From positions 1 to 32,360 of IMG/VR virus record IMGVR_UViG_3300043424_000433: a stretch of DNA of 32,360 bases; one strand, written 5' to 3'. Origin of the DNA: a virus. Of this stretch, positions 1,354-29,338 are shown in pieces. The translations under genes were made by a program, and so were the position numbers. The notes beneath the pieces were generated by a model. The model saw only the letters and a program-made list of their open reading frames with translations, was not told the origin of the DNA and did no database searches. Within the stretch, counting starts at the first letter, position 1. Every line of letters begins with the position of its first letter.

Positions 1354-1399
1354 TGGTTATAGTTTTTAACAATTTACATTTATTTAATTGGAGGTTTAT

Positions 1400-1723
1400 A
1401 TGCAAATGGGTGGATTTGAAGAAATCATTCCATTGGAAGATCGAGTAATAATTCGACCTTCGGAAGAAGAAGAAGTGACCAGTTCGGGTATTATTATTCC
1501 AGAATCAGTTGCAGAAGGAGCAGTGCGAGGTGTTGTGTTGGCTGTTGGACCTGGTAAGTATTCTGAACAAGGTACTATTATACCAATCACAGTTAAGGTT
1601 GGTGATGAAGTTTTATATGGGACAAAATACTTTGGAACAGAATGTATTTTGGATGGTGAGAAAGTTTTAATCATCCCACACACAAACATATTTGCAATCC
1701 TTAAACGTAAAGTTCAAGAATAA
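1400..1723 (+). CDS. groES: GroES-type co-chaperonin (107 aa)
   Basis: This is a full-length co-chaperonin that caps the GroEL cylinder during folding. It shows PLEDRVIIRP at the N-terminus, a mobile loop with SSGIIIPESV (the GroEL-contacting hydrophobic tripeptide), RGVVLAVGPGKY, VKVGDEVLYG and the C-terminal strand KVLIIPHTNIFAIL. At 107 residues it is slightly longer than bacterial GroES (about 97). The start at 1400 follows GGAGG by 5 nt; an upstream in-frame TTG at 1388 is unlikely. It precedes groEL by 27 nt in the order normal for bacterial operons. T4 encodes only a GroES analogue (gp31), which works with host GroEL for capsid folding; here the sequence is a recognisable true GroES. 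Confidence 0.93.
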   Translation: MQMGGFEEIIPLEDRVIIRPSEEEEVTSSGIIIPESVAEGAVRGVVLAVGPGKYSEQGTIIPITVKVGDEVLYGTKYFGTECILDGEKVLIIPHTNIFAILKRKVQE

Positions 1724-1747
1724 ATTATTAACATTTGGAGGTTATAG

Positions 1748-3397
<1,650 letters not shown>

Positions 3398-3489: not shown

Positions 3490-4275
3490 ATGGCAATACC
3501 ATCTTTAGCATCGTTGATTAAACGTAGAGACTTATCAGGTGTAGTTAGTGACACCATTTCTTATTTAGCATTACAACCTGCTAAACGAGTCTTGTTCATA
3601 ACAACATCAACAAGATACCCATTCAATACGGAGTATTCTGCAGGTGGTGTTGAATTAGAACTACCAAAATCAACTGAACTTGCATTGTTCATCAAAGAAC
3701 AGATACCTAATAAATCAGAATGGATTGATATACCACAATTAAAAATATACCCATGTGAAGGCAATGTCTCACATAAAACAGGAAACACTTGTGGTGTTAT
3801 GGATTCTGTATTAAAAGATAAGAAGAAGAATCCAACTGGAAATCATAGATGTTGGGCATCAGTAAACGATAAAGAAGATGAACTGTGGATGGTAAGTAAA
3901 GAACTATTCAAATCAGATATAGTTCTTTTCTTTTCATCTATCCGTTGGGGACAGGCAAATTCAGAATATCAAAAGTTGATTGAAAGATTGACATGGTTGG
4001 AAAACAGACATAGTACATTAGGTGAAGATAATCTACTGGCAGATAAACAAGCCGGGTTTATTTGTATAGGACAAAATTGGAATGGTGCAAATGTAACAAA
4101 AATACAGAAAGATGTTTTGTCTTTCTATGGATTCAATACACCTGATAACCTATTTTGGAACTGGCAATATACAACAAACCCAACAGACGAATCACAAGAA
4201 TCTTATGAAAAATCAGATAAACAGTTTCATTTAGATTTAGGAATACCATATATTGATCCGGAAAAATATGATTAA
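3490..4275 (+). CDS. Flavodoxin-fold / NADPH-dependent FMN reductase-like protein
   Basis: The protein has 261 residues. After about 35 N-terminal residues it shows an alpha/beta pattern like the FMN_red/flavodoxin fold: AKRVLFITTSTRYP (strand 1 and a phosphate-binding-like loop), SDIVLFFSSIRWGQ around residue 145 (the position of the flavin-contacting P-x-Y/R-W-G loop), and QAGFICIGQNWNGANV followed by FYGFNTPDNLFWNW. A redox or flavin role is therefore plausible, but no substrate can be named. It leads an operon with two proteins that carry prohead-protease-like N-termini, so it may be made late or be packaged. The first 30 residues (SLASLIKRRDLSGVVSDTI) are helical and do not end in an obvious L-x-E site. 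The stop overlaps the next gene by 8 nt. Confidence 0.6.
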   Translation: MAIPSLASLIKRRDLSGVVSDTISYLALQPAKRVLFITTSTRYPFNTEYSAGGVELELPKSTELALFIKEQIPNKSEWIDIPQLKIYPCEGNVSHKTGNTCGVMDSVLKDKKKNPTGNHRCWASVNDKEDELWMVSKELFKSDIVLFFSSIRWGQANSEYQKLIERLTWLENRHSTLGEDNLLADKQAGFICIGQNWNGANVTKIQKDVLSFYGFNTPDNLFWNWQYTTNPTDESQESYEKSDKQFHLDLGIPYIDPEKYD

Positions 4276-4714
4276 ATTAAAAGACATATTAGAAGAAGCA
4301 TTTGGTTTGGGGTTTAATATAAACACACCAGTATCAAATGTAATAAAATTAGGCAGGTCTCCATCTGGTAATATCTTTCTGAACTTTACAGAGAATGGTA
4401 TACGAGAAGGTAGGTCTCCATCTGGTGATATTCTTTTGAATATAGACCGTGATAAAATACGATTGGGTAGGTCTCCATCAGGAAGAATTATTGCTAGATT
4501 CGTGAATCCATTTGTCAGACTTGGTGAAAGTACGACTGGAAAAGTAATAGCAAATATAGATTCTTCAAACAGAGTTAGAGAAGGACGTTCACCATCCGGA
4601 GATATACTTGCAACTGTTATCGTTGGTAAGATGGAAAAAACTAATCCTAAAATGGCAGGTGCGGCTGCCGCTGTTTATTTATACACTAAAAATATGATAA
4701 GGATGATAGAATGA
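4268..4714 (+). CDS. 19-residue tandem-repeat protein with capsid-targeting-like N-terminus
   Basis: This 148-residue protein starts at 4268 (GGAAAAAT just upstream; overlap with the previous stop). It begins MIKLKDILEEA, an amphipathic leader ending in I-L-E, which fits the (L/I)-x-E cleavage rule of T4 prohead protease gp21. Residues about 25-120 are five repeats of 19-20 residues, each built on [LE]GRSPSGxI followed by a hydrophobic strand; the fourth is diverged (LGESTTGKV). Such G-x-S-P-x-G-x-I repeats suggest a small beta structure like beta-flower or beta-solenoid folds. The C-terminus has a short Ala-rich hydrophobic segment (MAGAAAAVYLYT). The stop overlaps the next start (ATGA). I do not recognise the family. 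An internal head protein is a reasonable inference. Confidence 0.72.
   Translation: MIKLKDILEEAFGLGFNINTPVSNVIKLGRSPSGNIFLNFTENGIREGRSPSGDILLNIDRDKIRLGRSPSGRIIARFVNPFVRLGESTTGKVIANIDSSNRVREGRSPSGDILATVIVGKMEKTNPKMAGAAAAVYLYTKNMIRMIE
4352..4640 (+). repeat. Coding tandem repeats, 57-nt period
   Basis: Units begin at 4352, 4409, 4466, 4523 and 4583 (spacings 57, 57, 57 and 60 nt). The core GGTAGGTCTCCATCTGGT is nearly identical in the first three units, diverged in the fourth, and recoded in the fifth (GGACGTTCACCATCCGGA encodes the same GRSPSG). Each unit encodes about 19 residues of the protein at 4268-4714. Confidence 0.9.
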
Positions 4715-9410: not shown

Positions 9411-9434
9411 AATCAAAATTAAAATATACAGAAA

Positions 9435-9455
9435 TCGCCAGACATAATCTGGCGA
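9435..9455 (-). terminator. Hairpin terminator of the secreted cassette
   Basis: An 8-bp perfect stem TCGCCAGA / TCTGGCGA with a 5-nt loop lies 36 nt past the stop of the 391-residue gene. On the minus strand it is followed by TTTCTGTATATTTT, an imperfect T tract. Confidence 0.65.
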
Positions 9456-9490
9456 CTTCGTAACTCCATTAACACATGGTTATTGAGATA

Positions 9491-10666
9491 TTATTCTACA
9501 ACCACCCAATTAGTTCCATTATACCAAAGAGTTCTTGATTGGTTTGGATAAATAGGGTAATTCAAAGCAGTATCGGTACTCCATGCCGTGTTCAAAATAG
9601 TAACTGTATTTGCAGTTGAGCCATTGAAGATGGAAATGAGCTGACCAACAACTGGATTTGTAGGTGATGTAATGTTGTAATCGACCGCAACACGACTGAC
9701 AACCCATCGTGTATCTCCAGAAATACTTGTTGGGGCGGCGGTATAAACTTGAACACTACTTGTTCTGTGTTGTGGATTAACTTCCCACGAAATTCCGTTA
9801 GTTCCACGAACTGCATACGAACCAACTGATGCAGTTGAACTCCCTTCGAGTGATGAAAGTCTAACAGATCCTGGTTGAAAGTTACGATGTTCTATTGAAT
9901 TATCAACCAATGTTTTTGCGGTATCTGCAAGAACTGAACGAGCAGAGTTTGTTGCAAACGCAGATGTAGATGCGAAATTTGCATGGTCTGCATCATAAGC
10001 AAACACTGATGTATCAGCTAAGTTTGCATGAGTTCCATTCAAAGAATAGAATGATGTATCGGACTTAGCAGAATGTGCAGCCGTTGAAGCATAGGTTGCC
10101 AAATCTGAAAGAGTTGACTTACCAGCGGCTCTACTTGTATCTGAATATCTACTTGTATTTGAATGATTACTCACTGCAGTTGAGTCTGCATATTCAGCAG
10201 TTCCGGCTCTTTTAGAACGAACTGCGAAATCTGATGTGTTTGCACTATCGGCATATATTGATCTGTTAGCAGTTTCTGCAACTTTTGCCTGAGCAGCTTC
10301 TAATGAATATGTTGAAAGAAGTGAATATGGAACACTACGAATTTGTAATCTACCAAGTGACACACCATCTACATACGCATATACAAACAATTTCTTACCG
10401 TAGTTATCAATCAAGATGTTGTCTGCAACATTCTCAATAAGATAATTGATAATACCGTTGTTGATTTCGATGTTCTCATTCTCACGATACCAAAGTGCAT
10501 TGGAATTTAGATGTGAGTTTTCATCGAAAGAACTATCTGCAATATAAATAGAAAACTTTGCTTCGGTTGGTGAACCGGCAGGTGCGTGTGCCTGATACTG
10601 AATGTTTGTTCCAGCAAAAGCATTAAATGAAACGAGAGCAACAAGTGCCAAAATAAAATAACGCAT
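9491..10666 (-). CDS. Secreted FCB-type adhesin/tail-fibre stalk protein
   Basis: This 391-residue protein has a clear Sec signal peptide (MRYFILALVALVSFNAFA, cleavage after AFA). Residues about 20-110 match the N-terminal domain of surface stalk proteins common in Bacteroidota and relatives: KFSIYIADSS, NALWYRENENI, LFVYAYVDGVSLG and the hallmark IRSVPYSLLS. Residues about 115-255 are degenerate repeats rich in A-D-[ST]-x-x-[YF]-A, like trimeric fibre stalks. The C-terminus (VRGTNGISWEV to TLWYNGTNWVVVE) looks like a fibre head. An export signal is not expected on a virion fibre assembled in the cytoplasm, so the product probably goes to the host envelope or cell surface. It follows the T9SS-domain gene by 21 nt; AGAGG precedes the ATG. 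Capture from an FCB host is likely. Confidence 0.78.
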   Translation of the reverse strand: MRYFILALVALVSFNAFAGTNIQYQAHAPAGSPTEAKFSIYIADSSFDENSHLNSNALWYRENENIEINNGIINYLIENVADNILIDNYGKKLFVYAYVDGVSLGRLQIRSVPYSLLSTYSLEAAQAKVAETANRSIYADSANTSDFAVRSKRAGTAEYADSTAVSNHSNTSRYSDTSRAAGKSTLSDLATYASTAAHSAKSDTSFYSLNGTHANLADTSVFAYDADHANFASTSAFATNSARSVLADTAKTLVDNSIEHRNFQPGSVRLSSLEGSSTASVGSYAVRGTNGISWEVNPQHRTSSVQVYTAAPTSISGDTRWVVSRVAVDYNITSPTNPVVGQLISIFNGSTANTVTILNTAWSTDTALNYPIYPNQSRTLWYNGTNWVVVE

Positions 10667-10687: not shown

Positions 10688-11104
10688 TTAGTAAATGATA
10701 GTTGTTGAATAAGTAACATCAGAGTTTGTTGTAACTCTAACAATGTACACACCACGATTTGTGAATGTGATAGTTCTGGTGGAAACATCAATCCCCTCTG
10801 TTAGAAACTTACCATACAGGTCAGATACTTGAATTGATTTAACATTGTCCATACCAACAGTTGCAACGCCATAACAAGGGTTCGGATAAACCAACCCATC
10901 AACATTTCTGGTTTCTTCTACCGATACAGCAACTCGTTTTGGAATACGAATACCGATATGAAACCTATTCTTGTAACCAGCAATCACTTGTCCAAGTGTT
11001 GCATTCTTATTTCCACCACTTACACAACACTTGTGTAGATGTGGTTTGGTGTCACTCGCAGTTAATATGCCAACTGCGAGGAATAAGGCAATGATATATC
11101 TCAT
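10688..11104 (-). CDS. Secreted protein with T9SS C-terminal sorting domain
   Basis: The 138-residue protein has a hydrophobic signal peptide (MRYIIALFLAVGILTAS) and a C-terminal domain from about residue 70 to the end with the marks of a type A type IX secretion sorting domain: LVYPNP (73-76 is YPNP), IQVSDLYGK, RTITFTNRGVYIVRV and a short final strand (TIIY). In T9SS bacteria this domain takes proteins across the outer membrane and anchors or releases them. The cargo part is only about 50 residues, with an HKCC motif and a basic segment (GIRIPKRVAV). AAAGGAG is 8 nt before the ATG. It leads the two-gene secreted cassette. The domain call is strong by motif; the function on the host surface is unknown. 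Confidence 0.82.
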   Translation of the reverse strand: MRYIIALFLAVGILTASDTKPHLHKCCVSGGNKNATLGQVIAGYKNRFHIGIRIPKRVAVSVEETRNVDGLVYPNPCYGVATVGMDNVKSIQVSDLYGKFLTEGIDVSTRTITFTNRGVYIVRVTTNSDVTYSTTIIY

Positions 11105-11137
11105 TGTCTAAACTCCTTTTGAAAATTATTAAGTGTA

Positions 11138-11169
11138 CTAATATAACAAATTTATAGGTAAGAAGCAAA
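11138..11169 (-). promoter_or_regulatory. Bacteroides-like promoter of the secreted cassette
   Basis: On the minus strand TTTG (11169-11166) is followed after 20 nt by TATATTAG (11145-11138), close to the Bacteroidota pattern TTTG-N19-21-TAnnTTTG. It lies 34 nt before the ATG at 11104. TTTGCTT at the upstream box recurs at 371 and 13044. Confidence 0.5.
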
Positions 11170-14780: not shown

Positions 14781-15782
14781 CTATTTTTTCCAAAAAGAGT
14801 ATATGCCTTTATCCAATTCGTACTCACTCCAAATGAATTGTTCTCGCATTGGTTGTAACTTTGCCCAATCCCACATCTGTCTTAATCCATCTTCGAGTGT
14901 TGTACTATCAGAATAATCCAATAATTCCACTGACTTTTTCCAAGTTGGGTGTGCATATTTTACCTCATGTCTTGGTTCAAGATGTATGGTTTCACCATAA
15001 CCAATAACTGATTTTAGAACTCTATTTGCTTCGTTTATACTATAATCCTTAGTTCCACCCAAGTTTATTATTTGTTTTGAAGCTCTAGAATCTACTGCTG
15101 CCTTCCAAAGTGGTTCAAGACAATCATCAATATAACTGAATGATCTGACTTGATTACCGTCACCGTAAATGGTCATTGGTTTATCATTGAGAACTTGATA
15201 CATCCAAATCCCAAGAACATTTCTATACTTGTCCCAAATGTTTTGTTTTATACCGTATACATTATGTGGTCTGATTATACACCAGTCCAAACCATGTTGT
15301 TCACCTGCAATTTGAATATCTTGTTCACAACCAAATTTAGCAACACCATACGGATCGATTGGTGCAGGTTGATGTGATTCATCAAATGGTGGGGTTCCAT
15401 GACCATAAACTGCCATAGTTGATGTGAATACCAATCTATCAACATTATGTTTAATACAGTTATTAACTATATTTGCTGTTGCAAGTAGATTGTTTTCGTA
15501 ATTGAAACATCTAATGAATGGCGATAGTCCTTCCGCTGCATAAGCTGCCATGTGATAGACATATGTTGGTTTGTGTCTATCGAATATATCGTCAATCTGT
15601 TTCCTATCAACACAATCTGCCTCGTAAAAAATTACATTTGGATTGACATTATCAATATATCCACCGGAAAGATTATCAATGGAAATAACAGTATATTCGG
15701 AATGGTTTGATGTTATCCAATCTGCAAGTCTCGAACCCAAAAGACCAGCGCCACCAGTTATTAGTATCGTTTTGTTATTCAT
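14781..15782 (-). CDS. Extended SDR NAD-dependent sugar epimerase/dehydratase
   Basis: A 333-residue extended short-chain dehydrogenase acting on a nucleotide sugar. ILITGGAGLLGSRLAD is the NAD-binding TGxxGxxG loop, YHMAAYAAEG the NNAA-type segment, FTSTMAVYG the Ser/Thr of the active site and YGVAK the catalytic Tyr-x3-Lys. IYGDGNQVRSFSYIDDCLEP is the usual substrate-side block. It resembles UDP-glucose/GalNAc 4-epimerases more than GDP-fucose synthase, but the exact sugar cannot be read. It is the last gene of the glycan operon and overlaps its neighbour by 8 nt, with GAGG upstream. Full length and no lesions seen. Confidence 0.88.
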   Translation of the reverse strand: MNNKTILITGGAGLLGSRLADWITSNHSEYTVISIDNLSGGYIDNVNPNVIFYEADCVDRKQIDDIFDRHKPTYVYHMAAYAAEGLSPFIRCFNYENNLLATANIVNNCIKHNVDRLVFTSTMAVYGHGTPPFDESHQPAPIDPYGVAKFGCEQDIQIAGEQHGLDWCIIRPHNVYGIKQNIWDKYRNVLGIWMYQVLNDKPMTIYGDGNQVRSFSYIDDCLEPLWKAAVDSRASKQIINLGGTKDYSINEANRVLKSVIGYGETIHLEPRHEVKYAHPTWKKSVELLDYSDSTTLEDGLRQMWDWAKLQPMREQFIWSEYELDKGIYSFWKK

Positions 15783-16563
15783 ATTTTATACCTCGTATTG
15801 TATTTCCCAGCGGAGAATGTCTATTACTAGATGTTCTAAATGCTCTGAATCCCCACTTGTATTGAAAAGTTTCTGATGCAGCAACCTCACTATCTTTGAA
15901 TCTCTTTGATTCTGATCCATTTTTTGTAGACATACTACCGAAGTGATAAAAATTTAATTTTCTACTTCTTAAAAATTTAAGACCAATCAACTCCAATTTA
16001 AGAAAGAAATCCCAATCACAAATGAAAGGTGAATCATAAATAGTATCGAATCCACCAACTGCCATATAGTATTTCTTCTGCATTACAAATGGAAAAATTT
16101 CACCGTCAGATGTTAGTGAATCTTTTCTATATTTTATTTCTTCTTCTGTATACTTCTTGAAATCGAAGTTATCAACGCCACCGAAATCGAGAGTTACGAA
16201 ATCAAATATGCTAGGAGTTCTTTCTATTTGATTGGGAGTTATTACCAACTTATCTTCAAAATCTTTTTCAAGAATGGTGTCCCAATTTTTCGGAAATACA
16301 TTGTCATCATTTACAATCAATATCCATTCATTGTTTGCATTGTATGTACCAACGTTTAATGCGTACTGCATTCCAGAATTACTTTCTATTGGTATGAAAG
16401 AAACTCTGTTACTATATTCATCTATGATATGTTGTGATTCTTGAACGAATCCATCTATCACAACTATTATCTCGTTCTCATGTGTTTGGTTTTCTAATGC
16501 AGACTTCAAACAAATATCCAAACACTTTGGATTTCTATAAGAAGGTATTATTACTGAAATCAT
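15775..16563 (-). CDS. GT2-family glycosyltransferase (GT-A fold)
   Basis: A 262-residue family 2 glycosyltransferase. It starts MISVIIPSYRNPKCLDICLK, then EIIVVIDG, NSGMQYALNVGTYNANNEW and the DxD-type ILIVNDDNVFP near residue 90 for metal and nucleotide-sugar binding. A later VGGFDTIYDSPFICDWDFFL segment is the acceptor-side motif of this family, with the conserved aspartates. No membrane segment, so it acts in the cytoplasm. TTGGAG lies 6 nt upstream and the start overlaps the previous stop (ATGA). The donor and acceptor are unknown. Confidence 0.88.
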   Translation of the reverse strand: MISVIIPSYRNPKCLDICLKSALENQTHENEIIVVIDGFVQESQHIIDEYSNRVSFIPIESNSGMQYALNVGTYNANNEWILIVNDDNVFPKNWDTILEKDFEDKLVITPNQIERTPSIFDFVTLDFGGVDNFDFKKYTEEEIKYRKDSLTSDGEIFPFVMQKKYYMAVGGFDTIYDSPFICDWDFFLKLELIGLKFLRSRKLNFYHFGSMSTKNGSESKRFKDSEVAASETFQYKWGFRAFRTSSNRHSPLGNTIRGIKYE

Positions 16564-17261
16564 ATTTTACTCCAATCGGTTAATGGTGATAACCAAGCGG
16601 TTTCACCGTGAGTTGAATAGCCAGGAATTGGTGTCATCAGTGCAACACCCTTATCTCTTAATTCTAAAAACATATCGAAGTCTCTTGGATAATGACCCAT
16701 GTTAGTCCACTTACGAAGTATTTCTTCATCGCGTTTTAGACTTTTAACTTTACAAGCAAATGTCATAGTGGTGCTGTTTGCAAGTTTCCAATGACAAGAT
16801 TCAGAAAGATATATCTTAGTTACCTCACCACCATCATCATCAACATATTTATTACCACCACGATTTGCGGGAATGTATTTATCAGGATGGTCATACAGAC
16901 TAACATAATCTGCACCCAATGTAATTCCTTCCAATAATATCTTATCTGAATTTGGTTTATGAATATAATCATTTTCTAAGAAATAAACAAGCGTTTCTTC
17001 ATCTTGTTTCAATGCCCAATCCAATGCCAAATTAAAAGTTCCTGCACCATGACCAACGGAAACATAATCAATCTGTTCATCTTCTATATCACCCGATTGC
17101 CGAATTATTCTTTTTGTTTCTTCCGATACATTATCTGCAATCACATGGAAGTTTTCTTTTCCAAAAACTCTAACTGCATTTTGTAGACAATTGGCATTGT
17201 TAATGTAAAGTGGTTTAACCTTGTTGTAACCCGCATCCGATATTCTATAAATTATTTTCAT
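16560..17261 (-). CDS. Probable GT-A glycosyltransferase (233 aa)
   Basis: The protein has a GT-A-like start (MKIIYRISDAGYNKVKPLYI), a nucleotide-binding-like middle and a DxD-like LVYFLENDYIHKPN around residue 90, followed by LGADYVSLYDHPDKY. Later it has HWKLANSTTMTFACKV and GVALMTPIPGYSTHGET with conserved-looking His and Thr. I recall similar proteins in marine phage glycan clusters annotated only as glycosyltransferase or hypothetical. The start is either ATG 17261 or TTG 17270, which is 4 nt after AAGGAG. It overlaps the GT10-like gene by 17 nt or more. Activity is inferred from motif and context. Confidence 0.7.
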   Translation of the reverse strand: MKIIYRISDAGYNKVKPLYINNANCLQNAVRVFGKENFHVIADNVSEETKRIIRQSGDIEDEQIDYVSVGHGAGTFNLALDWALKQDEETLVYFLENDYIHKPNSDKILLEGITLGADYVSLYDHPDKYIPANRGGNKYVDDDGGEVTKIYLSESCHWKLANSTTMTFACKVKSLKRDEEILRKWTNMGHYPRDFDMFLELRDKGVALMTPIPGYSTHGETAWLSPLTDWSKI

Positions 17262-18114
17262 GGTTTTCAAAAAACTCCTTTAATCCGTAATTCCATAATA
17301 CATCGCCAAAACTAACAAATTTTTTAGCAATTTCAAAATTATTTTTTATTGATTCGATTCTAGACTCATAATACGATTCACAAAACATTCCAGATTCAAT
17401 CATTTCAATTAGTTCATCGAAATTAGAAAATACAACAATTCCATTCAAATCAAACATGGATAAGTAGTTTATATCGTTACCACTCCAATATATCGGAATG
17501 CATCCACACAACATAGAGTCTATAAGTTTTTCTGTAAAGTTTGGTGAATCCTCATTTTCAATAACTAATTCAAATCTGTAATCACTCAACCCATCAACTT
17601 TTCTATCGATTGGTGGGTTTAGATAATCAATCGGAGTATTATCAGATTCATTATAGTATTCTTTTATCTTATGTCTTAGTTTGTGACCATCGAGATATTT
17701 CTTTGGAGAAACTATCGAAGATATGTTCTTAGTTTTTTGATAGACCATTCTTTCGTCAGGTCTTATGAAAGACCTGCATCCTCCTGGATAATACTTAAAC
17801 TTTGTAGAATTGCCAAAGGATTGGTATGTTGAAAATATCATGTCAAACATAGAACTGTTTTCATGTGCCCATTCATAATTTTTAGGACAAAGTGAAACTG
17901 GTTCCATTAAAACAAAGATTTTGTATTTTGAATTACTATACAAAACTTGACTTTTTATATTTTGAAATTGATCTAATCCGCCTGGTGTATCTACCCAAAT
18001 GGTAGTTTCAGTTTCAGAATCCGTCCATTTAATAAACTCACTATCCCAACATGGATATAAACCATTAGATTCTTCATGTCCGTAATTACCAGGACTTATC
18101 AATTTTATTTTCAT
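17245..18114 (-). CDS. GT10-like alpha-fucosyltransferase
   Basis: A 289-residue GT-B enzyme of the family that transfers fucose or a related 6-deoxyhexose from a GDP donor. The signature is in the C-terminal half: NISSIVSPKKYLDGHKLRHK, then YRFELVIENEDSPNFTEKLI and CGCIPIYWSGNDI, which parallel the YKFYLAFENS...TEKF...VPVYWGG block of alpha-1,3-fucosyltransferases that binds GDP-sugar. The start at 18114 (MKIKLISPGNYG) overlaps the gmd stop by 4 nt, and AGGGG lies 9 nt upstream. The neighbour makes GDP-4-keto-6-deoxymannose, the precursor of GDP-fucose and GDP-perosamine, which agrees with a GDP-6-deoxysugar donor. Confidence 0.8.
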   Translation of the reverse strand: MKIKLISPGNYGHEESNGLYPCWDSEFIKWTDSETETTIWVDTPGGLDQFQNIKSQVLYSNSKYKIFVLMEPVSLCPKNYEWAHENSSMFDMIFSTYQSFGNSTKFKYYPGGCRSFIRPDERMVYQKTKNISSIVSPKKYLDGHKLRHKIKEYYNESDNTPIDYLNPPIDRKVDGLSDYRFELVIENEDSPNFTEKLIDSMLCGCIPIYWSGNDINYLSMFDLNGIVVFSNFDELIEMIESGMFCESYYESRIESIKNNFEIAKKFVSFGDVLWNYGLKEFFENHENNL

Positions 18115-19091
18115 TTCGATAAAACCCCTAACCAATGGTGTATCATTTCATCCATAGTACCATTAAAATCATATTCGGGTTTCCATCCTATGATATTCCT
18201 TATACGAGTAGAATCACCTTTTAAGTATGGTAGTTCTTCTGGTCTTAAAAACTTTGGATTCTGAACAACATAATCTCTATAATCCAAACCAAGTTTATTG
18301 AAAACATACTCACACATTTCTCTAACAGAACGAGTCTCACCAGTTGCAACAACCCAATCATCAGCGGTGTCCTGTTGTAATATCAAATGCATAGCCCTAA
18401 CGTAATCCTTTGAATGCCCCCAATCTCTGAATGAATCAAGATTACCTAATTCCAATTTATTATCCAATCCAAGTTTTATTCTGACAGCAGTTTTTACAAC
18501 TTTATTTGTTACAAAATTAGATCCTCGTCTTGGTGATTCGTGATTGAAAAGAATACCATTACTCGCATGGAGATTATATGAGTTTCTATAATTACGGACA
18601 ATGTTATATGCAAAAACTTTTGAACAACCATACGGTGAAACTGGTTTCATTATGGTTGTCTCTCTTTGGAATCCATCATCATCAACAGAACTTCCAAACA
18701 TTTCCGATGATGATGCCTGATAGAATTTTGCATTTGGACATATTCTTCTATATGCATCTAGTATATTAAGAACACCAACTGCATTTGTTTGAACTGTAAA
18801 TTGTGGAATATCGAAACTAACTCTAACATGACTCTGTGCAGCAAGGTTGTATATTTCATCCGGCATTATTTCAGACAACAATCTTTCCAAACTGGATTGA
18901 TCCAATAAATCACCATAGAATACTTTTATGTTTTCAATAGGACTTGCATCAAGTCTACTCTGTTGATGTTCAGGTGTAGAGTTTCTTCTAATCATACCAT
19001 AAACATCATATCCAAGTCCAACTAGATATTCTGCAAGATATGATCCATCTTGACCACCTATTCCGGTTATGAATGCCTTCTTCTTAATCAT
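18111..19091 (-). CDS. gmd: GDP-mannose 4,6-dehydratase
   Basis: A 326-residue extended SDR that converts GDP-D-mannose to GDP-4-keto-6-deoxy-D-mannose. TGIGGQDGSYLAE (residues 9-21) is the GMD form of the NADP-binding loop. MIRRNSTPEHQQSRLD, YGDLLD, YNLAAQSHVRVSFDIP, the active-site SSSEMFG and the catalytic YGCSK follow, then LFNHESPRRGSNFVTNKV and LGNLDSFRDWGHSKDYV. All are classical GMD signatures and the length is close to typical (340-370). The start is 1 nt after the preceding stop (TAAtATG). Its product is the branch point to GDP-fucose, GDP-rhamnose and GDP-perosamine; the adjacent aminotransferase and acyltransferase favour the perosamine-type branch. Confidence 0.95.
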   Translation of the reverse strand: MIKKKAFITGIGGQDGSYLAEYLVGLGYDVYGMIRRNSTPEHQQSRLDASPIENIKVFYGDLLDQSSLERLLSEIMPDEIYNLAAQSHVRVSFDIPQFTVQTNAVGVLNILDAYRRICPNAKFYQASSSEMFGSSVDDDGFQRETTIMKPVSPYGCSKVFAYNIVRNYRNSYNLHASNGILFNHESPRRGSNFVTNKVVKTAVRIKLGLDNKLELGNLDSFRDWGHSKDYVRAMHLILQQDTADDWVVATGETRSVREMCEYVFNKLGLDYRDYVVQNPKFLRPEELPYLKGDSTRIRNIIGWKPEYDFNGTMDEMIHHWLGVLSK

Positions 19092-19092
19092 A

Positions 19093-19692
19093 TTACATTC
19101 CTATATTATTTTTGAATACTTCCATTTGTGTTAAATCTGGCCAATCAGAAACAACCCATTGTCTAGGTTTGTTTTTTATTGCATCCGGTAATTTATCCAA
19201 ACCATTTTTTGCAGTTTCGGGTGTCATGTAGTAGTGATAACCAAATGTTGATATGTTTTGATCCCTCCATGGTATTACAGGCATTCTTCCGTCATAAGAC
19301 ATTTTCTTCAACTCAATAGCATCGGTTTGATTATCTAATAGAAGAACACCACCCCTACCGAGAGATAAATGTTTTTGATATTGAAAACTAACACCCATCA
19401 TTGTGTTTGGAATGTAACTATTTTCTTTCCACAAAACGGCAGCATCAATTATATTATCAGTCAGATAATAATAATCTAACCATTCTTCTTCTCTCCATTC
19501 TAATTCTATATTGAGTTTATTAGCAAGAAATGGAATAGAAATGTATGTGTGTTTTGGTACACTTATTTTATTAGCATTAGTATAACGAAGTGCAAGTTCA
19601 ATACCATGTGTACAACTATCAACTGCAATAGCAAAAGGTGCACCAAAGAATTTTGCAATCTCTTTCTCGAAATCTTGGACTATCTGAAACAT
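19093..19692 (-). CDS. Compact DegT/DnrJ/EryC1-type aminotransferase (199 aa)
   Basis: PLP-dependent sugar aminotransferases of this family are usually 360-390 residues; this one has 199. It keeps the N-terminal FEKEIAKFFGAPFAIAVDSC and THGIELAL (PLP phosphate loop), then ISVPKHTYISIPFLANKL, IIDAAVLW (the Asp that pairs with the PLP ring nitrogen) and VSFQYQKHLSLGRGGVLLLD, with the lysine that would bind PLP. The usual segment between the strand after HTYIS and DAA is shortened, and most of the C-terminal domain is missing. Flanking genes abut on both sides, so it does not look like a fragment left by a frameshift. It could aminate the GMD product at C4. The start 19692 is 1 nt after a stop (TGAtATG); 19704 is an alternative. 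Confidence 0.75.
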   Translation of the reverse strand: MFQIVQDFEKEIAKFFGAPFAIAVDSCTHGIELALRYTNANKISVPKHTYISIPFLANKLNIELEWREEEWLDYYYLTDNIIDAAVLWKENSYIPNTMMGVSFQYQKHLSLGRGGVLLLDNQTDAIELKKMSYDGRMPVIPWRDQNISTFGYHYYMTPETAKNGLDKLPDAIKNKPRQWVVSDWPDLTQMEVFKNNIGM

Positions 19693-19693
19693 A

Positions 19694-20230
19694 TCAAATA
19701 CCATAACCTAATTGTTTAACATGATTTAATATAACATCCTTTCTTCTTATCTTTATTGGTTTTGCCGGTGAGCCAACATATATTGTCCATGGTTCTGTAT
19801 CTCTTGTTAATAGAGAGTTTGCACCCAAAATAGATCCCTCTGCCAAAGTAACACCAGGCATTATAGAACAATTAACCCCACATCCAGAATACTTTTCAAA
19901 TTTTATAGATGTGAATTTTATATCCCTATATTTTCTTGGTATAGTTGGTCCAACCAATCCGAGTCCAGTGTAATCCTCGCTACCAGCAACAAGTTTTGTT
20001 CCAGCGGCAACGAAAGAAAAATCATCAAGTATTATTGTAGATTCAATACCACCTATCATACAAACATAAGGAGCTATGTGAACATAGTCACCTATTTGCA
20101 GTTTTGTTGTAACCGTCACACCATTATCTATTGCAACATGGGATCCTATTGATGTATCATTTGGATATTTTATTATTGCAGTATCATGTATGAATACGTC
20201 ATCGCCCACATTAGATAAATCTTTTATCAT
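19694..20230 (-). CDS. Hexapeptide-repeat (left-handed beta-helix) acyltransferase
   Basis: A 178-residue LbH-fold transferase. Hexapeptide turns appear as TSIGSHVAIDNGVTVTTKLQ, IGDYVHIAPYVCMIGGIE, SGCGVNCSIMPGVTLAEGSI and ILGANSLLTRD, then the typical end YVGSPAKPIKIRRK. The His in the HIAPYV turn is a candidate catalytic residue. By context it could N-acylate a 4-amino-4,6-dideoxyhexose made by the aminotransferase next to it, as PerB/FdtC-type enzymes do, although O-acylation is equally possible from sequence. The start 20230 has AAGGA 7 nt upstream; 20245 is an alternative. Both overlap the cupin gene. Confidence 0.85.
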   Translation of the reverse strand: MIKDLSNVGDDVFIHDTAIIKYPNDTSIGSHVAIDNGVTVTTKLQIGDYVHIAPYVCMIGGIESTIILDDFSFVAAGTKLVAGSEDYTGLGLVGPTIPRKYRDIKFTSIKFEKYSGCGVNCSIMPGVTLAEGSILGANSLLTRDTEPWTIYVGSPAKPIKIRRKDVILNHVKQLGYGI

Positions 20231-20621
20231 TCTCTTGTCCTTCATATGGTCCTGTTTTATATTCGTAAACTAACGTATCGTCTTCAAGTATTTCATAGTT
20301 ATGGCCGCCCTCAAGTGTAAAACTCGCATCACCAGGATACAATATCGGTTCTGCTATTATAGTATCATCCGTATCGTAAAAGATACACTTAACACTACCT
20401 TGAACAACAATCCAACTTTCTTGAGCAATAACATTTCTACTTCTTTCTTTCCATATATGTTTATGTGGTCTGAATGTTTTTCCCTTTTCCATTTGTAGAA
20501 TAGAACATTGTATAAATTGATCCACATCAACAATATCCTCTCTACCTTGTTTGAAATCATCCTTACGAACAATTATGTGTAACAACTTATCAGAACTAAC
20601 TTTTGAATAAAATTTTTCCAT
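20211..20621 (-). CDS. Cupin-fold protein (136 aa)
   Basis: A small single-domain cupin. FRPHKHIWKERSRN supplies a His-x-His pair, ESWIVVQGSVKCIFYDTDD the conserved G in the first cupin block, and LYPGDASFTLEGGHNYEILE the second block with PGD and a later His. The end is LVYEYKTGPYEGQENDKRF. Such cupins in polysaccharide clusters (WbuC- or FdtA/TylM3-like) either isomerise a keto sugar or have no known role. A 3,4-ketoisomerase role would extend the dideoxysugar branch, but TDP-type FdtA signatures are not obvious. It follows the unknown protein by 29 nt with a weak AGAGA site. Confidence 0.75.
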   Translation of the reverse strand: MEKFYSKVSSDKLLHIIVRKDDFKQGREDIVDVDQFIQCSILQMEKGKTFRPHKHIWKERSRNVIAQESWIVVQGSVKCIFYDTDDTIIAEPILYPGDASFTLEGGHNYEILEDDTLVYEYKTGPYEGQENDKRFI

Positions 20622-20650
20622 ACAATTTTCTCTAATTATTATTAAAACAG

Positions 20651-21283
20651 TTATACAGTTTCTTCAACTCTTTTCAATATAACAAATGCATATTCTGTAT
20701 TAAACCCTTTAACCATTCCCCAAGATTTATTTGATTCTAAAAATCCGTTAATGGTATTCTCGACTGACATAGTATTCATTCTATTGCCAAGACTAAAAAC
20801 ATTCTTCTTTATCATTTCCAAAAATTCACTATCATAAACGATTATGTATTTATTGACTTTATCAAAATTAGATTCTAATATCTGCATCAATCCATCATAA
20901 TCGAAGTTGGTGTGTATGAACATCATATCAGTTTTTTTATCTATATCTTTGTCATCTTTTTTAACAACCACGTTAAAGTCTATACCAAGATACTGTGATA
21001 TGTCTCTTGCGTATTTAGTTTCTTTTCCTATGGTATTATAGGTAACTGATGTAAATTCTTTTTTAGAAATATCATCTACGTTTTCAAAAAGACCATGTAA
21101 CAAACACCAAGTAAATGTCAGATTCTTTTTTATTTTAACTGCATTTATTTCGGTAATCGAATTACATTGTTTTGCAAAATCGTTTAGTATTCTACAATAT
21201 GGAAAATCTTCAATTAAAGATATTGATGTATTCAGATATTTCTTTTCTAAAAGATTTATTGATAATTTTTCAAAAGTATTCAT
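20651..21283 (-). CDS. Unknown protein, possibly degenerate methyltransferase fold (210 aa)
   Basis: The start at 21283 is 1 nt after the stop of the GT9-like gene (TGAtATG). The region SITEINAVKIKKNLTFTWCL then LHGLFENVD resembles the motif I strand and helix of Methyltransf_24-like proteins (E-I-G-x-x-x-G-x-S-T-W-x-L-L-x-G-L), but the glycines are absent. DMMFIHTNFDYDGLMQILES is where an IHID...Y-x-x-V motif would lie. The C-terminus is KSWGMVKGFNTEYAFVILKR. I infer a Rossmann-like fold with a doubtful SAM site, so it may be inactive or have another substrate. It lies within the operon and shows no frame damage. Confidence 0.6.
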   Translation of the reverse strand: MNTFEKLSINLLEKKYLNTSISLIEDFPYCRILNDFAKQCNSITEINAVKIKKNLTFTWCLLHGLFENVDDISKKEFTSVTYNTIGKETKYARDISQYLGIDFNVVVKKDDKDIDKKTDMMFIHTNFDYDGLMQILESNFDKVNKYIIVYDSEFLEMIKKNVFSLGNRMNTMSVENTINGFLESNKSWGMVKGFNTEYAFVILKRVEETV

Positions 21284-21284
21284 A

Positions 21285-22148
21285 TCAACTATTAACAATA
21301 TCTAAAATGTTTTTGATAACTTCTTCATCACTAATATACGGATTTAATGTGACATGGCCAAATTCTGGAAAATAAAATTTTGGTCCAAGTTTTGGTTCTT
21401 CATTTTTTTCTATAACACCATTCCAACCATATAGTTGATGAACAAAGTCACCTGTTATTATGGTTTTAACACCAAGACCGGCTGCTATATTAGACAACCC
21501 ACCTTCCGAACCAATGAAGTAATCACAGTTTTTAATAACAGATGCCGTCAATGATAATTCACTAACGATTGGTATTTCGGTAGTAGTCTGATTGAATCCA
21601 TTTGGTTTACCAACCGGTATCAATATCAATCTATCTTGTTTGTTTAGTACATCCACTATTCTATTCACATCCCTTCTCTTGCCACCATATCCCAGATTTG
21701 GAACATTCACACCCTTCTTATATTCTTCTTCTGAGAAAAGGAAACTTTTTTCTTCCCAATTAGTTTGAACTGCAATCAATATATTACCGTCTCTACGATA
21801 AGACTTAAATGCATCTTGTATCAATCTATCGTTTACTTTATTTGTATAGACTTGATAATGGGTGTCTGTGTCATCTATATCACATTGTAATTGGAACTGT
21901 TCTATTGGTGTTGTTTGTCTGTGTATAGGTTGGAGTTGATATATTATGTTATACTCATTTTCATCACAGTCAACAAAATAAACGTTATCTACATATGGAT
22001 TGTTAGCGATAAGTTCAAATGGTGCAAGTATAGATAAATGAAAATCAACAATGGAATCACTTCCGTATTTTTCTTTTAACTTCTTTGCAACTGATGAAGC
22101 AAATATATTATCACCTATAAAACCAACAGTCTTTACTAAAATTTTCAT
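21285..22148 (-). CDS. GT9 heptosyltransferase-like glycosyltransferase
   Basis: A 287-residue GT-B protein similar to ADP-heptose:LPS heptosyltransferases. It starts MKILVKTVGFIGDNIFASSV (the GT9 N-terminal GxIGDxxxxxP-like loop), then has VDFHLSILAPFELIANNPYV with VDNVYFVD. The C-terminal donor side has DYFIGSEGGLSNIAAGLGV followed by KTIITGDF, the family's D-T/S-x-x-x-H-x-A-A-A-x-G block in a modified form (E-G-G-L-S-N-I-A-A-G). Donor sugar is unknown. ATGA overlap with the preceding stop and AAAGGG upstream show coupling. Confidence 0.8.
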   Translation of the reverse strand: MKILVKTVGFIGDNIFASSVAKKLKEKYGSDSIVDFHLSILAPFELIANNPYVDNVYFVDCDENEYNIIYQLQPIHRQTTPIEQFQLQCDIDDTDTHYQVYTNKVNDRLIQDAFKSYRRDGNILIAVQTNWEEKSFLFSEEEYKKGVNVPNLGYGGKRRDVNRIVDVLNKQDRLILIPVGKPNGFNQTTTEIPIVSELSLTASVIKNCDYFIGSEGGLSNIAAGLGVKTIITGDFVHQLYGWNGVIEKNEEPKLGPKFYFPEFGHVTLNPYISDEEVIKNILDIVNS

Positions 22149-22756
22149 TTTATCAACCCTTTATTTATGAATAGAATATCTTGTTGATGTGAGCCATGAT
22201 TGAATGATTCATCCAAAACATCAGTCATCTTGAAACCAAAGTTGTCCATAAATGATATTACCTCGTCATATAAAGGTGCACCATGATTATATGGAGTCAA
22301 TGATACTTCCAATATGATTCCTTTTGCCTTACTACATAACTTTTTTCCACCTGAGATAATATCCAATTCAGATCCTTGTGTATCTATTTTTATCAAATCA
22401 AATTCGGAATCTCGCATGAATAAGTTATCCAACGTCATAGCTTCTTGTTCCAAAACATTAACTTGATCGTCTGAATAGAATTGAGTCATTTCTCTGTAAA
22501 TAGAATTTCCTGTGCATGTTGGATCACCCTTTCTACTATAAAACTCATATACAGAATTATCCTTTGCTAGAAGAGCAATCAAATAATCATTTGTAATTTT
22601 TTTCAATTCAGATTCACATTCTTGTGATGCCTCAATACTGAATATGTAACTATAAGAATAATGTTTCTTGAATAGAGAATGGAACTGACCTATGTTTGCA
22701 CCAATATCTAAAACACGATATGGTATGAAATAATTTGAAACGATATTCACATTCAT
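22145..22756 (-). CDS. FkbM-family SAM-dependent methyltransferase
   Basis: A 203-residue class I methyltransferase. YRVLDIGANIGQFHSLF (about residues 14-30) is the SAM-binding motif I, FSIEASQ the acidic motif II, and FDLIKIDTQGSELDIISGG the FkbM/Methyltransf_21 signature. It ends ESFNHGSHQQDILFINK. FkbM-type enzymes in glycan clusters O-methylate sugars. The start at 22756 (MNVNIVSNYFIPYR) is 1 nt after the preceding stop, with TTGGAAA about 7 nt upstream; a longer frame to 22789 overlaps the GT7-like gene and is less likely. Confidence 0.88.
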   Translation of the reverse strand: MNVNIVSNYFIPYRVLDIGANIGQFHSLFKKHYSYSYIFSIEASQECESELKKITNDYLIALLAKDNSVYEFYSRKGDPTCTGNSIYREMTQFYSDDQVNVLEQEAMTLDNLFMRDSEFDLIKIDTQGSELDIISGGKKLCSKAKGIILEVSLTPYNHGAPLYDEVISFMDNFGFKMTDVLDESFNHGSHQQDILFINKGLIK

Positions 22757-22757
22757 A

Positions 22758-23474
22758 TTAAATTTCCAATTTATTGTAAACAAATTCACTTACTTTCAAC
22801 CATCTGATATTATCAGACAAATTAAATTCTTCAACATTTGCTGATACATGATTGTAACCTAAGTGTAATAGATTTCTTATTTTGAATAACAATTCATGGT
22901 TTTGTATAAAATCAGAATCATTATCACTTGGTTTATTATCGGTGTGGTATAATGCGTAAAACAATCCATCATAATTTCTTTTCCATTCGTAACCGTGTAA
23001 TCGCAATCTCTCTCTTGTATCATCATCTTCTTTGCCCCAACCTTTATAGTATGGATTAAGACCACCAATCTTTTCAAACAAATTCTTATGTATAACAAAT
23101 ACACCACCGGAATGATCACCAACAGTCATGTGAAAATTTCTATAACCAAATGGTATATCGTTTATACTTCTTTCAAAATCATTATCATCTAAGAATTTAA
23201 CTTTACCAACTGGATACAACGGCGTATCTTCACTCGTTTCATATGAAATGTTAGAAACTGGATAATAATCAACATCGTGAAAAATTAAAAGTTCTCCATT
23301 AGACTGTTTAGCGGCGATGTTATACAATGAATTTTTTTGAAACTTTTCGTTGTTGTTCTGTTCTACAACAATTATTTCATAGGATTCATTTTCAAAAATC
23401 TCTTGCAATCTTGGTAGAAGTTTTTTAAGATGTTCTTCTCTATCCCTATATGATATTATTACAGAGTATTTCAT
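22758..23474 (-). CDS. GT7-like (beta-1,4-galactosyltransferase type) glycosyltransferase
   Basis: A 238-residue GT-A protein. It begins MKYSVIISYRDREEHLKKLL, then NSLYNIAAKQSNG and FHDVDYYP (D67-V-D69, the metal-binding DxD). The acceptor side is GGVFVIHKNLFEKIGGLNPY, then YKGWGKEDDDTRERL and LFYALYHTDN. This order (DVDxxP, GGV, N-G-L/F-P-N-x-Y-x-G-W-G-x-E-D-D-D, late His) is that of animal beta-1,4-galactosyltransferases and bacterial relatives (Glyco_transf_7C). The donor may be UDP-Gal or another sugar. The start at 23474 is 1 nt after the preceding stop (TAAaATG). Confidence 0.85.
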   Translation of the reverse strand: MKYSVIISYRDREEHLKKLLPRLQEIFENESYEIIVVEQNNNEKFQKNSLYNIAAKQSNGELLIFHDVDYYPVSNISYETSEDTPLYPVGKVKFLDDNDFERSINDIPFGYRNFHMTVGDHSGGVFVIHKNLFEKIGGLNPYYKGWGKEDDDTRERLRLHGYEWKRNYDGLFYALYHTDNKPSDNDSDFIQNHELLFKIRNLLHLGYNHVSANVEEFNLSDNIRWLKVSEFVYNKLEI

Positions 23475-23475
23475 T

Positions 23476-24333
23476 TTAACCATTAAACCTTGAATCAATC
23501 TGTGATTTCAAATTGTTTACTCTATCGTATTGATGTACGATTGCGTATGGAGTTGATGAATTTTTTGGATAAAGTATACCGTCTCTGTAATCAACATGGT
23601 TGTCCAGTTCATTTATTATTGCACCAATTTGAAGTGCCCATGAATCTTTGTAATCAACCCATTGTGATTTATCTTTTAATAGAGTGTTTGTTAATATATT
23701 AAATGAAGGTTGGTCAGCATGGCCTGTGTTATTTGACATTAGATAAAGTATCAAACACAAATCTCTAGCAATGTTACCTTTGCATGCAAAAGTACCAACA
23801 TTACACGCAAACTTTTCTTTCAAAAGATATTCATAGACATATGGACCGTAATTGGATAGAAGATTGTTTCTGTTCCACGATTCGTTCTCATAAGTAACTG
23901 CCTCGGATGGAACAACAATATCGACTTTCATTTCAGAGTCCAACCATTCAGACGGATTGGTTTGAAAGTAAACGTCTCTACCGTCTGTGAAAATTACACG
24001 ATTGTATTCCTTATCCAATCCAGTTTCAGTGAAATACTGCCATAAATGAAATAGTCTAACATTATGTATCAGTTTATTTGCATTAGATGGATTCACTTCT
24101 CCAGAGTGCCATATAAAGTTATTTTCTATTTCACCACGATATGTATTATTCGGTGTCAGTACAGTTACGCCAAGTTCTCTCAATTTATCTAAGTAAGAAT
24201 GATTGTCCTCAAAGTTGTATGCAATAACTAATACATCTCCTGTATATGAGGTTTGTTTTAGAGAACTAATCCAATTATTTATATCATTCCAAATATAATT
24301 TTTACTTATAGTAGTTACTATCAAATCTTTCAT
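23476..24333 (-). CDS. Probable GT-A glycosyltransferase with DxxD motif (285 aa)
   Basis: The protein reads as a GT-A enzyme of the kind with MKDLIVTTISKNYIWNDINN at the N-terminus, GDVLVIAYNFED, and a metal-site-like RVIFTDGRDVYFQTNPSEWL near residue 112 (D-G-R-D-V-x-F-Q, as in fucosyl/galactosyl hydrolase-like and DUF616-like transferases). Later NVGTFACKG and HADQPSFNIL match the G-x-x-x-G and D-Q-x-x-x-N blocks of such enzymes, and AIVHQYDR closes the domain. The substrate is unknown. It starts 8 nt after the preceding stop with a poor ribosome-binding site (GGG). Confidence 0.75.
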   Translation of the reverse strand: MKDLIVTTISKNYIWNDINNWISSLKQTSYTGDVLVIAYNFEDNHSYLDKLRELGVTVLTPNNTYRGEIENNFIWHSGEVNPSNANKLIHNVRLFHLWQYFTETGLDKEYNRVIFTDGRDVYFQTNPSEWLDSEMKVDIVVPSEAVTYENESWNRNNLLSNYGPYVYEYLLKEKFACNVGTFACKGNIARDLCLILYLMSNNTGHADQPSFNILTNTLLKDKSQWVDYKDSWALQIGAIINELDNHVDYRDGILYPKNSSTPYAIVHQYDRVNNLKSQIDSRFNG

Positions 24334-24341
24334 AAATTACA

Positions 24342-24968
24342 TTAACCCATATTTTGATAAAATAAATTCTGTGATTCTTGTTTTTGAATAGACTTCATGT
24401 GATACAAACAATATGCCTCGTCATCAGGAAAGAATGTATATGTTTCAAATCCAGTTATTCTTTCATGTACTTTATTTTCCCAAACAATAGAATCAGTGTT
24501 TTTGTAAATTCGAGTTTGATAGTCTGGCCAATTAACTCTTTCTTGTTCATCAAAATTCCAACCCCATCTTGTTATGTGATCAGGTGTTATATTGAAAACA
24601 GTATTCCATCTTGGAACTAAGAACATATCTATATCTGTATTGGATTCCAATATAGTTTTAAGATTGGATAATAGAAACTGTGAGGGAACTTCATCTGCAT
24701 CTATATTGAATATCCATTCTTTTGAACAGTATTTTTTAAGATTGTTTTTGAATCTCGAAAAATCTTTGTCTAATGGAAACTCTATCACAATTAAATTCTT
24801 TATGGATTCCAAATATCTATAAATGACTTCTCTAACTTCTTCTGTTAATTTCTCACTATCCAACTGTATTACAAGTTCATCATCATCTGTTATATGTTGG
24901 GATAATGTATCAAGAAGAACAGCGAGTTCTTTTTCTTCATTGCAGGCAGTTATTGTGTATGAAATCAT
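24342..24968 (-). CDS. GT2-like glycosyltransferase (208 aa)
   Basis: A short family 2 glycosyltransferase of the WaaE/SunS-like type. MISYTITACNEEKELAVLLD is the typical start, DDELVIQLDSE follows, FSRFKNNLKKYCSKEWIFNI precedes DADEVPSQFLL, the D-x-D-E metal site near residue 93. WPDYQTRIYKN and VWENKVHERITG match the family's acceptor-side block (R-x-x-x-x-x-W-x-x-x-x-H-E). Length is under the usual 250 but the core is complete. GAGG is 7 nt upstream and the ATG overlaps the previous stop. Confidence 0.85.
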   Translation of the reverse strand: MISYTITACNEEKELAVLLDTLSQHITDDDELVIQLDSEKLTEEVREVIYRYLESIKNLIVIEFPLDKDFSRFKNNLKKYCSKEWIFNIDADEVPSQFLLSNLKTILESNTDIDMFLVPRWNTVFNITPDHITRWGWNFDEQERVNWPDYQTRIYKNTDSIVWENKVHERITGFETYTFFPDDEAYCLYHMKSIQKQESQNLFYQNMG

Positions 24969-26284
24969 TTGGATTCCTCTTTTTTAAGTTGAGTTAGTTT
25001 TGGCAATTCTTTTAATTGTGGCAAACTTATTTTCATTTTCTCTGCAAATTTAGGTAGATTATCTTCTAACATAGTTTGAAACTTATCATGCATAGAATCG
25101 AATGACCATTTCTTTTTCATAATATCTATATTCTTTTTTGAAGACATAGTTGCAGTACCATAGTTTGTATAGATTTTATCCATCATCTTAGAAGCATTTT
25201 GGTAATCAACATTAAACCATCTTGAACCAGGATTTATTACACCTTCCCAAATTGCAGATTTATCAACTTCACGGAGTTCACCTTTCAATAGGGTGTTAAA
25301 TTTTTCATCAACAAAATCAATCTGACCACTCCATCCTGAAACAAGAACTGGTTTTCCTGTTGTCATAAATTCTGCAATAGGTCTTCCATACCCCTCACCT
25401 TTTGTGAAAGAAACAAACGCCTTTACTTTCGGATGATTATACAATGCATTCATTTCTTCCTCATTCAAATCACCGTGTAGGATATAAACATTCGGTAAAC
25501 TTTTCTTTTTACTCATATGTCTTATCAGATTAACCTTTTCAACAAGTCTACTTCTATCTGTGATTGAAAATGTTCCAGATGATGTTTTGAGAATAAGTGC
25601 AGGTGGATTTGGTCTATCTGCAAATGTTTCAAAAAAAGTATGAACTAATCCAGATACATCTTTTCTATCTTGACCAAAATCTCCTTTCATCCAATGACCA
25701 ACAAATAAGAATGCAAAACTTTCGTCAATCTTATTCAATTCATCATAAACCAATTCATTATCTTTCTTTTCATTGTTGAAAATATCTGTTCTAACACCTT
25801 CGTGTAATACATGAACAGGAACATTCAATTCTACTTTACCAACAATCTGATTTGTTTGTTTATCTCGTTTTTCATATTGTGTATTATCGAAAACCCATTT
25901 AGCATGATTTGATGGGACGATAATCATATTCATTCTATTACATCCCTCTATAAACTCACCGGAGCATATATCGGTTTCAATGCCAGCAGTTATTCCTATA
26001 TTAAACTTACCAACTGGTTGAAACTCATTTGGTATTGTACATTGCATCCAAATATCCGGTTGGGATTGTAGTGGTGCAGGATTCAATAAATCCAATATCA
26101 GTTTATGATCTGGATTGGTTTCATCCAAAGCATTCATTGGGGTATGTCCCCAATTTATAGGAATGATAGTTATTCTAAACTTATCCATTTTTATCAGAGA
26201 CAATACTAAATCTCTAGCATGAGATCCATATCCACTAACGGTAGTAACCGGTCCACAAAAAACTAATTCTGGTTTGTAACTCAT
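24965..26284 (-). CDS. GT4-type glycosyltransferase (439 aa)
   Basis: A GT-B glycosyltransferase. The N-terminal domain begins MSYKPELVFCGPVTTVSGYG with a glycine-rich acceptor loop, and contains IGITAGIETDICSGEFIEGC and IIVPSNHAKWVF. The donor domain starts around FAFLFVGHWMKG and includes VYILHGDLNEEEMNALYNHP, then FTKGEGYGRPIAEFMTTGKP (the E-x7-E motif, E-G-Y-G-R-P-I-A-E) and VLVSGWSGQIDFV. Donor unknown. GAGGATAAA precedes the ATG. Distantly similar in layout to the neighbour at 26292-27716, and duplication with divergence is possible. Confidence 0.88.
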   Translation of the reverse strand: MSYKPELVFCGPVTTVSGYGSHARDLVLSLIKMDKFRITIIPINWGHTPMNALDETNPDHKLILDLLNPAPLQSQPDIWMQCTIPNEFQPVGKFNIGITAGIETDICSGEFIEGCNRMNMIIVPSNHAKWVFDNTQYEKRDKQTNQIVGKVELNVPVHVLHEGVRTDIFNNEKKDNELVYDELNKIDESFAFLFVGHWMKGDFGQDRKDVSGLVHTFFETFADRPNPPALILKTSSGTFSITDRSRLVEKVNLIRHMSKKKSLPNVYILHGDLNEEEMNALYNHPKVKAFVSFTKGEGYGRPIAEFMTTGKPVLVSGWSGQIDFVDEKFNTLLKGELREVDKSAIWEGVINPGSRWFNVDYQNASKMMDKIYTNYGTATMSSKKNIDIMKKKWSFDSMHDKFQTMLEDNLPKFAEKMKISLPQLKELPKLTQLKKEESK

Positions 26285-26291
26285 TTTATCC

Positions 26292-27716: not shown

Positions 27717-27725
27717 GTGAAACCT

Positions 27726-29111: not shown

Positions 29112-29260
29112 GAAACACCTAAACTTCCGGTTAAATGATTAAGAATTAGTTTTTCTACCAACCCACTCAACTTATACCCATTATCATGGCAATAATTTAT
29201 CAATTCTTCTTTGAGTTGATTTCGTATTTGAATACTGGAGTATTTTGATTTTGCATCCAC
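29108..29260 (-). CDS. Ribbon-helix-helix-like small protein (50 aa)
   Basis: A short frame not covered by longer ORFs: GTG start at 29260-29258 (AGAG about 7 nt upstream) to TGA at 29110-29108. The product starts MDAKSKYSSIQIRNQLKEEL, continues INYCHDNGYKLSGLVEKLIL and ends NHLTGSLGVS. The strand S-I-Q-I-R followed by two helices joined at N-G-Y-K-L-S-G is the ribbon-helix-helix layout of Arc/MetJ/CopG-type DNA-binding proteins. Its stop overlaps the GTG start of the glycosyltransferase as GTGA, showing translational coupling and supporting both starts. It is the first gene of the glycan operon, with two perfect inverted repeats 24-60 nt upstream. An autoregulator of the operon is inferred. 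Confidence 0.7.
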   Translation of the reverse strand: MDAKSKYSSIQIRNQLKEELINYCHDNGYKLSGLVEKLILNHLTGSLGVS

Positions 29261-29284
29261 AAGATTCTCTAATGATTAAACATA

Positions 29285-29319: not shown

Positions 29320-29338
29320 GAAAATAGTAGATTTATTT

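Follow-up and report, generated by a model that had tools for sequence, protein, structure and literature searches.

We found that a small viral gene for a protein ending in a type IX secretion system (T9SS) type A sorting domain is paired with a gene for a fibre-like protein with a signal peptide; gene order in related viral records gives good support to the pair as a two-gene module. The sequence analysed here (the window) is a 32-kb IMG/VR record fragment of 32,360 nt, IMGVR_UViG_3300043424_000433. We propose, tentatively and at a little under an even chance, that the two genes form a module for remodelling the host surface, probably by masking or altering receptors of the infected cell. 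The small gene and its parts are:

10688..11104, minus strand: small T9SS-tagged protein, 138 aa, start ATG at 11104, with homologues in 21 other viral contigs
11054..11104, minus strand: likely Sec signal peptide, residues 1-17 (MRYIIALFLAVGILTAS), with a hydrophobic core in family members and an AF2 helix at 2-18
10892..11053, minus strand: short conserved spacer, residues 18-71, motif SGGNxNATLGQVxAGYKNxFHxGIRxP, from the alignment
10691..10891, minus strand: T9SS type A C-terminal sorting domain, residues 72-138, from profile matches, AF2 pLDDT of about 80-88 and nearest folds

An earlier note on this DNA had placed the gene at these coordinates and left the strand unstated. Read on the minus strand, the 417-base gene gives one 138-residue protein; the plus-strand reading is full of stops. 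The motifs that the note had picked out are where it put them (YPNP at 73-76, DLYGK at 95-99 and FTNRGVYIVRV at 114-124). It had also named the domain as a T9SS type A sorting domain and proposed two profile searches, both of which bear it out: TIGR04183 scored 30.5 bits (E 2.7e-7; curated cut-off 23 bits) at the extreme C terminus, residues 72-137 of 138, and PF18962 scored 28.0 bits (E 2.8e-6; curated cut-off 27 bits) over its full profile (1-75/75). A six-frame search of the whole window placed the sorting domain at this single site. An AF2 model built with 16 family members gave a confident C-terminal beta sandwich (residues 74-138, pLDDT about 80-88), in agreement with an Ig-like fold of seven strands, the strand number given in the earlier note. 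T9SS substrate domains were its best fold matches (8gl6, 8glj, 8glk and 8gl8), with SprA-PorV-bound substrates heading the list; Foldseek ranked the RemA sorting domain bound to T9SS first, and three T9SS substrate domains topped the VIA-align list. Because the Z score of about 6 is moderate and other Ig folds follow close behind, the fold by itself would not settle the identity of the domain. Taken together, the profile scores and the fold make this identity well supported. In the reverse direction, a profile of the phage family matched large secreted proteins from flavobacterial, Dyadobacter, chitinophagal and Bacteroidales genomes at their C-terminal domains.

A scan of 2.9 million viral contigs yielded 21 further records with the small gene, 22 in all; for the 17 relatives with reported values, identity to the query was 41-93%. 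The sorting domain was detected in 16 of 17 other records holding the gene (14 over the cut-off) and in all four of a further set, with scores of up to 47 bits. Across the 22 members, TIGR04183 exceeded its cut-off in 19, fell just below it in two and met a protein truncated by the contig end in one. Such recurrence across other viral records argues that the match is more than chance. The dN/dS ratio among relatives is well below 1, indicating purifying selection. The sorting domain itself seems to have been exchanged between two types, with the first half of the protein left unchanged (window 10688-11104 compared with L009:10001-10423): L009 combines a window-like first half with a sorting domain like that of L006.

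The homologue search proposed in the earlier note thus found relatives in viral contigs, and none among deposited phages, where tblastn of the small protein against INPHARED returned chance matches only. PHROGs held no family for the small protein, and family patterns retrieved no close relative from genome contigs of 84,980 bacterial species. For the spacer, 395 genomes of the phylum gave no convincing match, the best (L128) lying inside an unrelated protein, and the guessed bacterial motif GQVVYTT gave nothing in 60 genomes. The pattern QGVQQP did retrieve a family of small bacterial T9SS proteins, considered below.

The N terminus of the small protein looks like a Sec signal peptide: a hydrophobic core follows M-K/R/N in 18/18 members checked, and most of these have a likely cleavage site with small residues. 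Between this signal-like helix and the beta sandwich lies the spacer, which is the best conserved stretch of the family and, taken alone, is predicted by AF2 to be disordered, with no fold of its own.

The earlier note had described a single T9SS-tagged gene. The tagged gene stands; what was overlooked is its obligate partner downstream, predicted to be exported:

9491..10666, minus strand: partner, exported fibre-like protein, 391 aa, 21 nt downstream of the small gene and the next gene in 20/20 testable records
10613..10666, minus strand: partner signal peptide, residues 1-18 (MRYFILALVALVSFNAFA), with a conserved AxA-type site (NAFA|G or LSA|Q)
10331..10612, minus strand: partner N-terminal beta domain, ending SVPYSL, AF2 pLDDT about 60-84, with a similar exported bacterial protein in L179
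9902..10330, minus strand: partner repeat shaft of A..ADTS repeats, from the alignment, differing in length among members
9494..9901, minus strand: partner C-terminal tip, like phage depolymerase and tail-fibre C-terminal domains, from a PF25692 match below cut-off and Foldseek

Every record long enough to check has the partner directly after the small gene, including L008 and L017, where the other neighbours have changed. Conversely, all four records first found through the partner carry the small gene just upstream. Across records the partner has 328-407 residues, starts within about 5 to 21 bases of the small gene and keeps one layout: signal peptide, beta domain ending VPYAL or a variant, shaft and tip. 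Profile searches recognised no sorting domain in it. Its tip matched PF25692 at 15.4-21.4 bits in four members, below the cut-off of 25, and the first Foldseek match, a tailspike depolymerase, was weak. With a mean pLDDT of 49, the full-length partner model is poor, and its fold matches are only hints. Against INPHARED deposited phages the partner gave weak partial matches only. We also considered whether the tip duplicates part of the tail fibre of the phage itself; the records, most of them fragments, contained no other copy of it.

Signals for expression were located around the pair:

11138..11169, minus strand: candidate Bacteroidota-type promoter TTTG-N20-TATATTAG, of a kind enriched upstream of genes
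11113..11118, minus strand: ribosome-binding site AAGGAG, conserved in most relatives
9431..9459, minus strand: terminator-like hairpin after the partner gene, 13 pairs, where chance alone would give 1.3 such sites over the scanned stretch

The small gene and its partner are probably made from one transcript. Bacteroidota-type promoter sites upstream of genes numbered 18, against 3 in a reversed-string control (window plus a 177-kb relative); over the whole window, TTTG-N18..21-TAnnTTTG showed only a mild excess (5 versus 1.7). Sites of the form TTG-N19..22-TAnnTT(T/A)G are enriched upstream of phage genes (window, L019-L027). The T4 late promoter TATAAATA was tried as well and is not enriched there (3 versus 3).

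That this is a phage gene, as the earlier note had it, agrees with the rest of the gene content. Two T4-type clamp-loader genes lie in the window, together with genes for a PD-(D/E)XK exonuclease and a GH19 endolysin, and three longer related records that hold the gene pair encode a T4-type Gp23 capsid. The window, being a fragment, has no capsid gene, and its assignment joins the clamp loader found here with Gp23 in relatives; on these genes the carriers class as T4-like (Gp23) phages. Elsewhere in the window lie a long run of glycosyltransferase-like and nucleotide-sugar genes (14781-29111), variable among relatives, which may build or alter a glycan, and a gene for a 153-aa protein with repeats of the form LGRSPSGNI (4253-4714), also found in the relative L003.

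The phage also carries its own chaperonin genes, which bear on the host:

1388-3397: phage groES and groEL

In a GroEL tree, eight related phage GroELs formed one clade whose sister was an Ignavibacteria UBA961 GroEL (support 100/99), on a contig whose gene content (groES, groEL and a dapA-like gene) marks it as bacterial chromosome. The genome to which this contig belongs, the closest by GroEL, contains 48 T9SS sorting domains. This placement beside Ignavibacteria and the T9SS-rich genome there indicate that the host probably belongs to the Ignavibacteria/Bacteroidota group, with the proviso that GroEL can be borrowed; the phage sorting domain is closer to the flavobacterial type than to that of the Ignavibacteria genomes tested. 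The GroEL tree and the promoter type agree with the earlier suggestion that the gene predicts the host group.

From these sequences we infer T9SS export, a surface location, a partnership of the two proteins and receptor masking. A T4-like phage of a Bacteroidota/Ignavibacteria-type host would produce both proteins, and their signal peptides would take them through Sec to the periplasm. As a T9SS type A substrate of minimal size, the small protein would be moved across the outer membrane by PorV and SprA through its C-terminal domain, and would then be displayed on the host surface or released from there; its predicted export follows from what is established about the sorting domain, type A domains being recognised by PorV (PMC12618676). 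The partner would be exported as a fibre whose N-domain is of a bacterial surface-protein kind, followed by a repeat shaft and then by a tip resembling phage receptor-binding proteins. Together they would coat or alter the infected cell, which would keep other phages from adsorbing or progeny from re-adsorbing to debris.

The slot after the pair varies among relatives, which have a tail-collar protein, a 211-aa protein or other genes there. In G475 it is occupied by a 1411-residue protein with a signal peptide (L234:5426-9661, that is, G475 25190-29425), an IgGFc-binding domain (E 1e-44) and choice-of-anchor/HYDIN-like Ig domains, a layout that bacterial surface proteins also have. The C-terminal 60 residues may represent a divergent form of the T9SS sorting domain; profile searches of this protein gave no sorting-domain match at its C terminus. 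The surface-remodelling role is suggested by the two predicted exported proteins, the receptor-binding-like tip and this G475 surface protein. Several points weigh against it: the spacer lacks a predicted fold, the partner tip is unmatched in the same phages' other proteins and scores below the Pfam cut-off, and a tail-collar gene comes next in L006, L007 and others.

Among the readings, receptor masking is our first guess. The two proteins could be related differently, the small one serving as an adaptor whose spacer binds the untagged partner in the periplasm while its sorting domain drags the fibre through T9SS. The partner has a signal peptide, has no recognised sorting domain and is always the next gene, and the spacer is highly conserved although no fold is predicted for it alone, all of which would suit an adaptor; we nevertheless think it unlikely, as the partner could remain periplasmic or be released at lysis, and we know of no T9SS carrier of this kind. 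The fuller form of this idea, in which the infected cell displays the ferried receptor-binding-like fibre on its own surface, is likewise rather unlikely. If true, it would make both T9SS piggy-back export and phage-built surface fibres new, neither being known to us so far. Capture of a host surface protein for attachment or inter-bacterial competition, instead of phage exclusion, seems quite improbable. Bacteroidota do have similarly laid-out small proteins, and the large IgGFc-binding protein in the next slot of G475 would fit, but T4-like phages are normally lytic, the bacterial genomes searched gave no close relative, and the spacer, taken by itself, does not match the bacterial family significantly.

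We are very doubtful that the small protein is a decoy that floods PorV and the translocon during infection and so lowers the display of host receptor proteins. Being scarcely more than a sorting domain (138 aa), it would suit that task, and flavobacterial T9SS mutants are often phage-resistant; a decoy, however, leaves the conserved spacer and the obligate exported partner unexplained. Least credence goes to the pair being tail-fibre parts or acting on the envelope at lysis. The GH19 endolysin gene is no more than about 3 kb away, as is a tail-collar gene in some relatives, and the tip resembles depolymerase C-termini. The tail-collar gene follows the pair in L006 and L007 (Pfam match) and in L192 and L193 (by sequence), so a tie to virion parts may exist. 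Against this, both proteins start with likely signal peptides, which would remove them from cytoplasmic virion assembly, and the pair is intact in L008 and L017 despite the loss or displacement of its usual neighbours.

The surface-remodelling reading thus stays in front as a tentative one. Phage proteins that travel by the type IX system would offer a way into the poorly known question of how Bacteroidota/Ignavibacteria phages change the host surface, and a two-gene unit kept across divergent T4-like phages makes this question testable. The short sorting domain may double as a minimal secretion tag.

Among known proteins, the small Bacteroidota T9SS proteins retrieved by pattern (L130-L142, SYSVGQVVYTT...QGVQQP) share with the phage family a signal peptide (a likely one in the phage proteins), a short conserved part with a GQ motif, a type A domain and a similar size. 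In the spacer they resemble the phage family only weakly (hhalign E 0.03, probability 1.6% alone), and a spacer-to-spacer comparison of the two families was not significant. Several of them (L130, L131, L132-L142) sometimes occur in one genome. Phage T5 encodes Llp, a lipoprotein that acts on FhuA and excludes other phages by blocking the receptor. Like Llp and similar exclusion proteins, the protein described here is a small phage protein, predicted to be exported, that may act at the host surface; Llp differs in having neither T9SS nor a fibre partner.

The earlier note had called use of the host T9SS by a phage an undescribed strategy, which is wrong: T9SS-tagged cargo was reported in Cryophage in 2020 (PMC7468147), and PMC6949934 mentions further cases, in gut phages, where T9SS sorting domains lie beside BACON proteins. 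These BACON-linked cases share with ours the presence of sorting domains in phage genomes; they belong to another phage group, and the passages on them describe no paired module. Cryophage carries three variable T9SS type A cargo genes, for which superinfection exclusion or competition was suggested (PMC7468147). Sorting domains of type A, presumed use of the host T9SS and a proposal of superinfection exclusion are common to both systems. The Cryophage cargo, however, is an endoglucanase, a GH39 protein and a PA14 protein that vary between variants, whereas the family described here is small and stable, lacks any recognised enzyme domain and always occurs with a fibre-like partner predicted to be exported, in T4-like phages. 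With the principle known from these two sources, the present case is a new conserved, paired variant. Within the open-access literature, its novelty is a small, dedicated, conserved family, paired with a partner, in 22 T4-like phage contigs.
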